Source of the DNA: Sedimentisphaerales bacterium
GTDB taxonomy: Bacteria > Planctomycetota > Phycisphaerae > Sedimentisphaerales > Anaerohalosphaeraceae
DNA: 32,893 bases
Assembly: GCA_016928585.1 (NCBI GenBank)
Contig: JAFGKL010000132.1
Span: 1 to 32,893 of the forward strand
Direction of reading: 5' to 3'
Shown: in pieces, positions 4,669 to 32,793 of the stretch
Position numbering within the stretch: position 1 is the stretch's first letter
Layout of the letters: each line of letters starts with the position of its first letter
Made by a program: the position numbers and the translations under genes
The notes under the pieces: generated by a model
Seen by the model: the letters and a program-made list of their open reading frames with translations, nothing else
Databases searched by the model: none
Told to the model about the DNA's origin: nothing

Positions 4669-5499
4669 ATGAAACGTGGATTTACGCTTATCGAATTGTT
4701 AGTGGTTATCGCAATCATTGCACTGCTCTTATCCATCATGCTGCCAAGTCTGCAGAAGGTAAAACAACTGGCAACAGCCGCAGTTTGCCTGTCAAACGAA
4801 AGGCAATTGTCCATAGCCTGGCACAGCTACGCGGGCGATAATGTCAGAATATTAAACGCCGATACGGGGGATACCACCACAGGAACTTATTATGCAGGCT
4901 CCCCCGCTATTGAACTAAGAAGTTTTGTAGCCGATCCACAGGATGAAAACGGGAACCGCCACAACACAACGCTCGAAGACAAGATCAGGGGCTATAAAAA
5001 GGGCAGCTTCTGGCCTTATATTGAAAACCACAAGGCGTATCATTGCCCAAGTGATTCGCGTATTGCAAAGGAGCCAACTACACCAATGACAGGTTTCCCA
5101 AATACGATTGGCGGCTACCGAAGTTACTCGATGGGTGCACCTTTGTCCCAGTGGGCTGTCTTAGATCCTCCCGTCACAGGTGAAGGCGATGTTGTAGTCA
5201 GCAAGCTAGATCAATTTCTCCGGCCCAGCTCTAAAATAGTCTGGCTTGAGGAAGCCGATGGTTTCGGCTGGAACCACCGCACGTGGAACATGTACTTAAA
5301 TCAGTACAGATGGTGGGATCCATTCGCAATATGGCACAACGGCTCCAGTACCTTTGGCTACGCAGATGGACATGCTGATCGTTATAAATGGAAAGAAGAA
5401 GAAACCATCAGGATCGCAGAAGAACAACTAAAAGATATAGCAGTTAATCCGGATAATGTGGATTATCTCTGGTTCAGGACGGCTTACATCCCCGGCTAA
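4669..5499 (+). CDS. Prepilin-type N-terminal cleavage/methylation protein (DUF1559-like pseudopilin)
   Basis: 276 residues. The N-terminus KRGFTLIELLVVIAIIALLL is a classic type IV prepilin/pseudopilin leader: peptidase cleavage after Gly4, methylated Phe5, and Glu9 at mature position 5, followed by the hydrophobic helix. The rest is a soluble domain ending with a GYADGHADRYKW motif. The H-x9-DG-type C-terminus of planctomycete G/H-type pseudopilins is similar, and such proteins occur in many copies per genome. Two Cys (CLS and CPS) could form a disulphide. AAAGG precedes the ATG by 8 bases. It is a single gene here. The likely role is as a pilin-like subunit of a type II secretion or pilus-like fibre, possibly the same machinery as the PilM cluster at 9521-15248. 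Confidence 0.9.
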   Translation: MKRGFTLIELLVVIAIIALLLSIMLPSLQKVKQLATAAVCLSNERQLSIAWHSYAGDNVRILNADTGDTTTGTYYAGSPAIELRSFVADPQDENGNRHNTTLEDKIRGYKKGSFWPYIENHKAYHCPSDSRIAKEPTTPMTGFPNTIGGYRSYSMGAPLSQWAVLDPPVTGEGDVVVSKLDQFLRPSSKIVWLEEADGFGWNHRTWNMYLNQYRWWDPFAIWHNGSSTFGYADGHADRYKWKEEETIRIAEEQLKDIAVNPDNVDYLWFRTAYIPG

Positions 5500-30226: not shown

Positions 30227-30556
30227 TTAAAACTGCTCGTCAAAATACTCTTCATCAATATCGTCGCTGTCTAAACTAAATTCGTCCTCATTGAAGACCA
30301 TATCGTAAAAATCATTGTATTCATTCTGAGATTCGATCAGAACGTGTGCAACGTCAAGATGATCCTCAGGAACCATGATTGCTATACCGCTAAAATTCGA
30401 TGGATCTGTTTGAGTTTTAATAGCAACTGGAATATTCTCTTCGCTAAGGATCTCTTTGTAATGCTTTGCAAGATCCATGTCTTCTGCAAAGGCAACTGTA
30501 ACAAAATCCTTTAGCTGGGTCTTGGAAGACTGCTTTTTTTCATGGCGATTGGGCAT
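30227..30556 (-). CDS. Small acidic-tailed protein, DUF2007-like
   Basis: 109 residues, soluble. The core (about 17-83) with FVTVAFAEDMDLAKHYKEIL, EENIPVAI and GIAIMVPEDHLDVAHVLIE has the alternating pattern of the DUF2007 ACT-like small domain, found in putative signal-transducing proteins. The C-terminus is strongly Asp/Glu-rich. GGGAG precedes the ATG. First gene of the pair with 29890-30192. Confidence 0.72.
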   Translation of the reverse strand: MPNRHEKKQSSKTQLKDFVTVAFAEDMDLAKHYKEILSEENIPVAIKTQTDPSNFSGIAIMVPEDHLDVAHVLIESQNEYNDFYDMVFNEDEFSLDSDDIDEEYFDEQF

Positions 30557-30871
30557 TTCTATCTCCCGAAATAAAATGACAACTAAACAAATTCAAAACT
30601 TATTCCAACGAGGGCTTCTTCGTCAAAAGATCAGGCATGATTAATCAAAAATTGCTCAAAAAATGCACAACTAATTCCAAATGCCCATTTCGATAGTACC
30701 GCAAATGTCGAATTTTCCGGTTATAGCGTCTATAGATGCAAAATTTTTAAAAAAACACGAATTTTTTTGTTGCATGATACACGAAATAGGTTAAGAATAT
30801 GCCTCTCAAAGGCGTTTTGACGGCTGTTGCCGCGTTATTATTGGAACATATTTTTACATGGAGGTCACAAA
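30557..30871. other. Intergenic region between the DUF2007-like gene and the histone-fold gene
   Basis: No gene and no confident promoter. It contains A- and T-rich runs around 30740-30770. A weak TTGCAT (30772-30777) with AAGAAT 17 bp on may serve the histone gene. Confidence 0.4.
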
Positions 30872-31078
30872 ATGGCAAAGAAGAAGAAAAAAGCAGCATC
30901 AAAGAAAGAAGTCTTGGTAGTCGCCAGCAAGGTAAAAGCTTACATCAAGAGCAAAGGCATGATGACGTCATCTGATGCTATTGCTGCTCTGAGTGATCAG
31001 ATCTACGGCATGCTTGATTGTGCCATGAAAAGGACCAAGGCTAACCGTCGTAGCACAGTAAAGCCTCAGGACCTTTAG
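30872..31078 (+). CDS. Bacterial histone-fold protein with Lys-rich N-terminal tail
   Basis: 68 residues. After a basic tail (KKKKKAASKK), residues 14-30 form the first helix (VLVVASKVKAYIKSKG). Residues 33-58 form a long second helix (SSDAIAAL...CAMKRTKAN). The end RRSTVKPQDL gives the R-x-T-x4-D motif (Arg60, Thr62, Asp67), which in archaeal and eukaryotic histones joins the second loop to the last helix. The last helix is very short and the protein stops right at the Asp-Leu. Single-fold bacterial histones are known from Bdellovibrio and Leptospira and can bind DNA. The frame reaches a CCT-containing start at 30827, but the ATG at 30872 has GGAGGT seven bases upstream. Confidence 0.8.
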   Translation: MAKKKKKAASKKEVLVVASKVKAYIKSKGMMTSSDAIAALSDQIYGMLDCAMKRTKANRRSTVKPQDL

Positions 31079-31136
31079 CAGGACCGGTTCTTTTGAGCAC
31101 TAGATCGGCAGCTTGTAATTAGTCAAAAAAAGATGG

Positions 31137-31161
31137 GCCGCTCCGACATCGTTGGGGCGGC
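31137..31161 (+). terminator. Hairpin after the histone-fold gene
   Basis: GCCGCTCC (31137-31144) pairs with GGGGCGGC (31154-31161) with one T-G wobble. What follows (TCCTTCATT) is only weakly T-rich on the plus strand; seven A upstream give a better terminator on the minus strand. Confidence 0.4.
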
Positions 31162-31333
31162 TCCTTCATTACAGGGGGAGGTCTCATTTTGTCTTTAAAT
31201 ACCAAAAAAAGTGCCTTGAGATCATATAAAAATTAAGTAAAAACATCCTTGTATAAACTCTCGCATAATTATTTTTGTGAAAATACCAAAAAAATACCCC
31301 TTTCAACATCATAAAGTTATATTTTTAAAGCAT

Positions 31334-31485: not shown

Positions 31486-32793
31486 ATGAGGGTGTTCATG
31501 CTTGGATGGGAATTCCCTCCGTTCATTAGCGGTGGTCTCGGCACAGCATGCTATGGTCTAACAAAGGCCATGAATAAAATGGGACTTCAAGTCTTCTTTG
31601 TACTACCCAAACCTGTAAACTCGGAACACTCCACCCACGTCAGGATGCTCAGCCCGAGTACCGCTAGAATACCGGGAGCAATATCGTTCGAGCTTGAGGA
31701 CATGGAAAATGTTAAATTCCATGCGATTAACTCTCTCGCGTTTTCCCCGTATGCACGCCCCGAAGAATATCAGCAGCTTTACGAAGAAGCGATCAGGCTT
31801 AAACGTCTAAGAGAAATTCAAGAGAGCGATTCATATCTCGAACACCCCGGCTGTTCAGATCATTATGGCGGAGACATGTTTTACGAAATACAGCGTTATG
31901 CAGCATCCTCAACAAGGATAGCCATGCAGGAGGACTTTGATGTCATCCACGCACATGACTGGATGACATACCCGGCCGGGATAGCGGTTGCATACGCTAC
32001 TGGAAAACCATTGATCATACACGTTCACTCGACTGAGTTTGACAGAAGCGGCGAAAACGTCAATCAGAGAATTTATGACATTGAGCGGCATGGCATGCAT
32101 GTCGCATCAAAGATAATAGCAGTAAGCCACCTGACCAGAAAGATCGTAATAGATCGCTACGGAGTAGAGCCGGACAAAGTCAAAGTGGTTTATAACGGCG
32201 TCGAACGCAACGGCCAGGGCATAAATGCACTCAGCAACGTCGGGATCAGAAAAGAAGAAAAGATCGTCCTTTTCCTCGGGCGGATAACCATGCAGAAAGG
32301 ACCTGAATATTTCCTTGATGCCGCAAAGCAGGTGCTTGACGTAGTAGATAATGTCAAGTTCGTTATTGCCGGTTCGGGAGACATGATGGGACGCATAATA
32401 GAAATGGCTGCCCAGATGGGTATTGGACAAAAAGTCCTATTCACCGGTTTCCTGAGAGGCAAGGACGTGGAAAAAGTATATGACATGGCAGACCTGTACG
32501 TAATGCCTTCGGTTTCCGAACCGTTCGGGATTGCCCCTCTGGAAGCGCTGAATCGGGATGTCCCCGTATTGATCAGCAAACAGAGCGGCGTTTCAGAAGT
32601 TTTGACACACGTCTTAAAGGTGGACTTCTGGGACACAAAGGAAATGGCCAATAAGATAATAGCCGTTTTGAAGCACCCGTCTTTACGAATGACATTACGG
32701 GAGCACGGCAATTTTGAAGTTCGCAAACTCCGATGGGAAGACGCAGCAAGGAAGTGCGTGGACGTCTACAACGAAATGATGATGACCGTTTAG
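31486..32793 (+). CDS. GT4-family glycosyltransferase, glycogen-synthase-like
   Basis: 435 residues, cytoplasmic. The N-terminal Rossmann domain starts VFMLGWEFPPFISGGLGTAC, the starch/glycogen synthase start with the GGLG loop. HAHDWMTYPAG follows. The C-terminal domain has FLGRITMQKGPEYFLDA and the nucleotide-sugar motif SEPFGIAPLE (E-x7-E). It should transfer glucose from a nucleotide sugar to alpha-1,4-glucan or a related chain. Directly downstream (23 bases) is the GH57 gene, the usual pairing for glycogen or maltodextrin metabolism in such bacteria. GGAG lies 8 bases before the ATG. Trehalose or sucrose synthase-like roles are less likely. Confidence 0.88.
   Translation: MRVFMLGWEFPPFISGGLGTACYGLTKAMNKMGLQVFFVLPKPVNSEHSTHVRMLSPSTARIPGAISFELEDMENVKFHAINSLAFSPYARPEEYQQLYEEAIRLKRLREIQESDSYLEHPGCSDHYGGDMFYEIQRYAASSTRIAMQEDFDVIHAHDWMTYPAGIAVAYATGKPLIIHVHSTEFDRSGENVNQRIYDIERHGMHVASKIIAVSHLTRKIVIDRYGVEPDKVKVVYNGVERNGQGINALSNVGIRKEEKIVLFLGRITMQKGPEYFLDAAKQVLDVVDNVKFVIAGSGDMMGRIIEMAAQMGIGQKVLFTGFLRGKDVEKVYDMADLYVMPSVSEPFGIAPLEALNRDVPVLISKQSGVSEVLTHVLKVDFWDTKEMANKIIAVLKHPSLRMTLREHGNFEVRKLRWEDAARKCVDVYNEMMMTV

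Follow-up and report, generated by a model that had tools for sequence, protein, structure and literature searches.

A predicted Leptospira-like FtF histone with a conserved gene-specific leader in a Sedimentisphaerales bacterium

What does a small basic protein with a histone-like C-terminus do in a planctomycete that also encodes HU, and to which of the known bacterial histones is it closest? The gene in question lies in a contig of a Sedimentisphaerales bacterium, of which the whole stretch of 32,893 nucleotides (hereafter the window) was analysed. A first-pass annotation had described a minimal histone-fold protein of the Bdellovibrio kind. The coding region can be divided as follows, with HLp denoting the histone of Leptospira perolatii.

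30872 to 31078, plus strand: gene for a face-to-face (FtF) type alpha3 histone of 68 amino acids (ORF translation, PDB search, profile search, AF2 model and Foldseek)
30872 to 30907, plus strand: Lys/Ala-rich N-terminal tail, residues 1-12, predicted to be disordered (AF2 model)
30923 to 30952, plus strand: helix alpha1, residues 18-27, with predicted DNA-contact lysines K20, K22 and K26 (AF2; alignment to HLp K15, K17 and K21)
30971 to 31042, plus strand: helix alpha2, residues 34-57, the dimer interface, with R54 as the equivalent of HLp tetramer residue R49 (AF2, alignment)
31043 to 31075, plus strand: loop 2 and short alpha3, with N58 (tetramer), R60-x-T62-x4-D67 (RD clamp) and C-terminal L68 (translation, alignment)

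The translation, MAKKKKKAASKKEVLVVASKVKAYIKSKGMMTSSDAIAALSDQIYGMLDCAMKRTKANRRSTVKPQDL, has a pI of about 10.2 and carries 17 basic and 5 acidic residues. The reading frame is genuine rather than a chance one, since it matches a solved histone at E = 3.6e-19 and has relatives in 121 of 148 related genomes. The R-x-T-x4-D motif noticed earlier at the C-terminus was found there (R60-S-T62-V-K-P-Q-D67-L68), ending one residue short of the terminus. The strong ribosome binding site was also recovered, as a Shine-Dalgarno GGAGG at 30860-30864 that is the only perfect copy among the window's 27 likely genes.

No significant family was returned by Pfam or NCBIfam, and the protein may therefore often escape annotation. 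In a phmmer search of the PDB, the best chain was 9qt0 (HLp), with 33 of 58 aligned residues identical (57%), followed by HBb of Bdellovibrio (8cmp, E = 1.8e-5) and HTkC of Thermococcus (0.036). A profile of 41 relatives gave the same order (HLp 6.1e-27, HBb 2.8e-11, HTkC 1.9e-7), and Foldseek with the AF2 model placed 9qt0 at rank 1 (rmsd 0.9, TM 0.94 by target), ahead of HBb and, after it, HTkC. The nearest characterised sequence is thus an FtF histone, with HLp on top in both sequence and fold. The 'DUF1931' label on 9qt0 is merely the depositor's name, and a DUF1931 pseudodimeric histone, with two fused folds per chain, is ruled out for a protein of 68 residues with a single fold.

The AF2 monomer model, built from 77 sequences (mean pLDDT 82.8), contains helices at 18-27 and 34-57, a single turn near 65-67 and a disordered N-terminus. 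The shortened alpha2 and truncated alpha3 that mark alpha3 prokaryotic histones are both present in the model, which matches HLp, HBb and HTkC in Foldseek at rmsd 0.8-1.2. The RxTxxxxD residues that structure loop 2 (R60, T62, D67) are invariant in the 77-sequence alignment. These results uphold the earlier proposals of a single histone fold, here that of an alpha3 bacterial histone, of a short last helix, a Lys-rich basic tail and a protein unlike archaeal nucleosomal histones; the description 'two long helices' was loose, holding for one helix (24 residues) and not for the other, which is only of medium length (10 residues). The tail has a median length of 17 amino acids in the protein's own family and 5 in the largest sister family. 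Because it is long in the one and nearly absent in the other, the core fold probably does not depend on it. A separate histone (L049, 4902-5183) bears a long AAPAKK-repeat tail resembling linker-histone tails.

According to PMC11390915, FtF histones use for their dimer-dimer interface an Arg and an Asn located where alpha2 ends and loop 2 starts, and both residues are missing from HBb-type bacterial dimers. The window histone has both (HMM positions 48 and 52, here R54 and N58), and R54, N58, R60, T62 and D67 are invariant in 41 close relatives from planctomycetes and Leptospiraceae. The crystal contacts of HLp, including its DNA-contact residues (PMC12701072), were mapped onto the window histone with an offset of +5. 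In HLp numbering, DNA-contact residues A13, S14, K15, K17, K21, T27 and T57 are identical, as are tetramer residues R49, N53 and R55 and clamp residue D62. Changes are conservative at K54 (to R), T56 (to S) and R59 (to K), while G29 (to S), S52 (to A57), T61 (to Q66) and F63 (to L68) differ; the last three are tetramer contacts, and their alteration speaks against an HLp-type tetramer. As R54 and N58 are invariant and the HLp contacts are largely kept, the protein belongs with FtF histones and not with HBb-type dimers. The earlier likening to Bdellovibrio gives way on this point, and also on the search scores and the Foldseek ranking given above; judged from sequence and modelled fold, the histone is of the Leptospira-like FtF type.

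The likeness to HLp (PDB 9qt0/9qt1/9qt2; PMC12701072) covers the fold, R49/N53/R55, the RD clamp and most DNA contacts. Besides the three altered tetramer contacts, the window histone differs in its Lys/Ala-rich tail and in its neighbours, which are glycogen genes rather than the SMC/MAP genes found at HLp; its host encodes HU, whereas no HU is reported for Leptospira (PMC12701072). HBb (Bd0055; PDB 8cmp, 8fvx, 9ezz) shares the alpha3 histone fold, the short alpha3 and R-x-T-x4-D, but has E and D in place of R54 and N58 and matches less well in sequence than HLp. HTkC (PDB 9f2c), an archaeal FtF histone, shares the class and the fold (rmsd 1.2) at only 30% identity, and tails are generally absent from archaeal FtF histones (PMC11390915).

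The gene is present in 59 of 66 near-complete genomes among the 148 relatives, and a class-wide sample contained it in 84 of 95 Sedimentisphaerales genomes vs 14 of 302 genomes outside this order. Across the phylum, 159 of 392 Planctomycetota genomes match the profile, the weaker matches possibly including other alpha3 types. Named relatives come mostly from Sedimentisphaerales/Phycisphaerae MAGs of Planctomycetota. FtF histones (PMC11390915) and the persistence of histones (PMC10627809) have been reported for this phylum before, and the window histone adds to the FtF kind already published. Since HU is encoded in the window's own genome and in 133 of the 148 relatives, the histone is one of at least two architectural proteins. 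In genus g54 (G089, G092, G098, G106, G108, G120, G123, G138), the histone was not found in any sampled member; several of these genomes are above 90% complete and all have HU, so that the absence appears to be a clean loss. These findings add a planctomycete order that has, alongside HU, a tetramer-type bacterial histone as a near-core gene; Leptospira, with a histone reported without HU, and a Sedimentisphaerales genus in which no histone was found offer a natural comparison. Histones 71-75% identical occur in MAGs labelled Actinomycetes, Deltaproteobacteria and Nitrospira (L057, L063, L073, L074), which reflects either mislabelled bins or horizontal transfer.

The surroundings of the gene contain three further features.

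30227 to 30556, minus strand: DUF2007 protein, conserved divergent upstream neighbour (Pfam, synteny)
31135 to 31163, plus strand: hairpin 3' of the stop codon, probable terminator (sequence; in many relatives a T run follows the hairpin)
31486 to 32793, plus strand: GT4/GT5-type glycosyltransferase, probable glycogen synthase, conserved downstream neighbour (Pfam, synteny)

In a set made up of the window and 80 named loci, 49 have the glycosyltransferase cluster downstream. A GH57-like enzyme comes next in 44 and a debranching-type enzyme in 43 (both names being read from sequence), and 31 have the divergent DUF2007 gene on the upstream side. This linkage to a glycogen-type cluster and a DUF2007 gene extends across the order (window 31486-32793, loci L032-L096). 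The downstream hairpin is absent from the output of a generic scan. Given this hairpin and the gap of about 400 bases before the next gene, the histone and the glycosyltransferase are likely to be on separate transcripts, and an operon of the histone with glycogen genes is unlikely.

The conserved, histone-specific 5' leader was the least expected finding and is the part worth following. Its elements in the window are listed below.

30770 to 30798, plus strand: promoter-like TTGCAT-N17-AAGAAT (family consensus TTGCAA-N17-CAAAAT/CACAAT, 31 leaders)
30821 to 30832, plus strand: leader hairpin CGGC-TGTT-GCCG, weak in the window, with a longer hairpin at the same place in most relatives
30838 to 30864, plus strand: histone-specific leader motif TTATTGGAAC-N9-CATGGAGG, which includes the Shine-Dalgarno sequence (family alignment, pattern search)

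Among 31 distinct upstream regions of the protein's own family, TTGCAA-N17-CAAAAT or CACAAT-like hexamers stand 71-84 bases before the ATG, followed by TTATTGGAAC, a T-rich spacer and CATGGAGG; the promoter-like element of the window is missing from the generic scan's output. The pattern TTATDGGAAY-N4..24-CAYGGAGG occurs once in the window's own genome, at 30838-30864. Of the 37 family genomes, 27 have a single copy, in every case (27/27) directly upstream of the histone, while a reversed control pattern gave 1 match. Some genomes contain two histones (G013 C185 and C15; L021/L037, L065), with a different leader at L065 and L021/L037. Immediately 5' of TTATTGGAAC, most leaders have a hairpin, the stems being unrelated in sequence (such as TCGACTC/GAGTCGA, AGCCAA/TTGGCT, CGCCTG/CAGGCG and CCGGCG/CGCCGG). 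In a position-anchored test, most individual leaders exceed their own shuffles, though as related sequences they are not independent; the window's own 4 bp hairpin is weak (p = 0.125 vs shuffles), and in two sister families p<=0.1 was reached in an unconvincing 5 of 12 and 8 of 32. A consensus fold computed from the MAFFT leader alignment contained no pairs, for which shifting stems and loops of unequal length are the probable reason; an Rfam search of the leader returned no family above chance. That the stem changes in sequence while keeping its place would speak for an RNA structure rather than a protein operator. It is possible, though we hold it only tentatively, that the mRNA leader (hairpin, UUAUUGGAAC, U-rich spacer, CAUGGAGG) controls histone dosage, perhaps through the histone itself or another RNA-binding protein at the ribosome binding site. 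In that case the leader would be a device dedicated to controlling a bacterial histone post-transcriptionally. Its gene specificity provides a testable handle on how histone dosage is set in bacteria. CsrA control, considered for the GGA motifs near the Shine-Dalgarno sequence, was set aside, as no CsrA gene was found in the window's own genome (73% complete).

The observed fold, nearest relatives, key residues and distribution are best explained by an FtF alpha3 histone like HLp of Leptospira, which probably acts as a nucleoid protein beside HU; tetramer, wrapping and abundance we infer from them. Two chains would form a histone handshake dimer, and two such dimers would join as a ring, with R54, N58 and R60 of each contacting the C-terminal end of the other. 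The lysine-lined rim (K20, K22, K26, T32, R59, T62, K64) could then wrap about 60 bp of DNA without sequence specificity, assisted by the basic tail. HLp itself wraps DNA as a ring of four copies, and a similar tetramer, with about 60 bp wrapped, is the most likely state. A role as a major chromatin protein, as suggested in the first-pass annotation, is plausible, the perfect Shine-Dalgarno sequence and the gene's retention in the order being indirect pointers to it; dominance in chromatin is not implied, because HU is encoded too, and the histone is dispensable in genus g54, a whole genus of the order without the gene.

A histone that bends DNA as a dimer, like HBb, shares the alpha3 fold and the R-x-T-x4-D clamp, and HBb chains are the next best structural matches (rmsd 0.8-0.9; 8cmp at E = 1.8e-5); with scores about 40-50 bits below that of HLp, and with the R54 and N58 that bacterial dimers lack (PMC11390915) both kept, this is quite improbable. 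Somewhat less remote, if still unlikely, is the reading in which the histone-fold protein serves locally or in regulation, say in connection with the neighbouring glycogen genes or a growth phase, instead of as a bulk nucleoid protein. The presence of HU in most of the same genomes, the conserved linkage to glycogen genes, the conserved gene-specific leader, which suggests regulated expression, and the genus without histone all point that way, but the DNA-contact residues match those of a protein that wraps DNA non-specifically, the Shine-Dalgarno sequence is perfect, the hairpin and long gap before the glycosyltransferase gene argue against an operon, and retention in the order is near-universal. 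Chance motif similarity in a generic helical or lysine-rich protein, for which the want of a Pfam or NCBIfam family might speak, is already refuted by the solved-histone and fold matches and has a negligible probability.

Elsewhere in the window, the stretch at 4669-5499 has a prepilin-like N-terminus (MKRGFTLIELLVVIAIIALLLSIMLPSLQ), of a kind common in planctomycetes.
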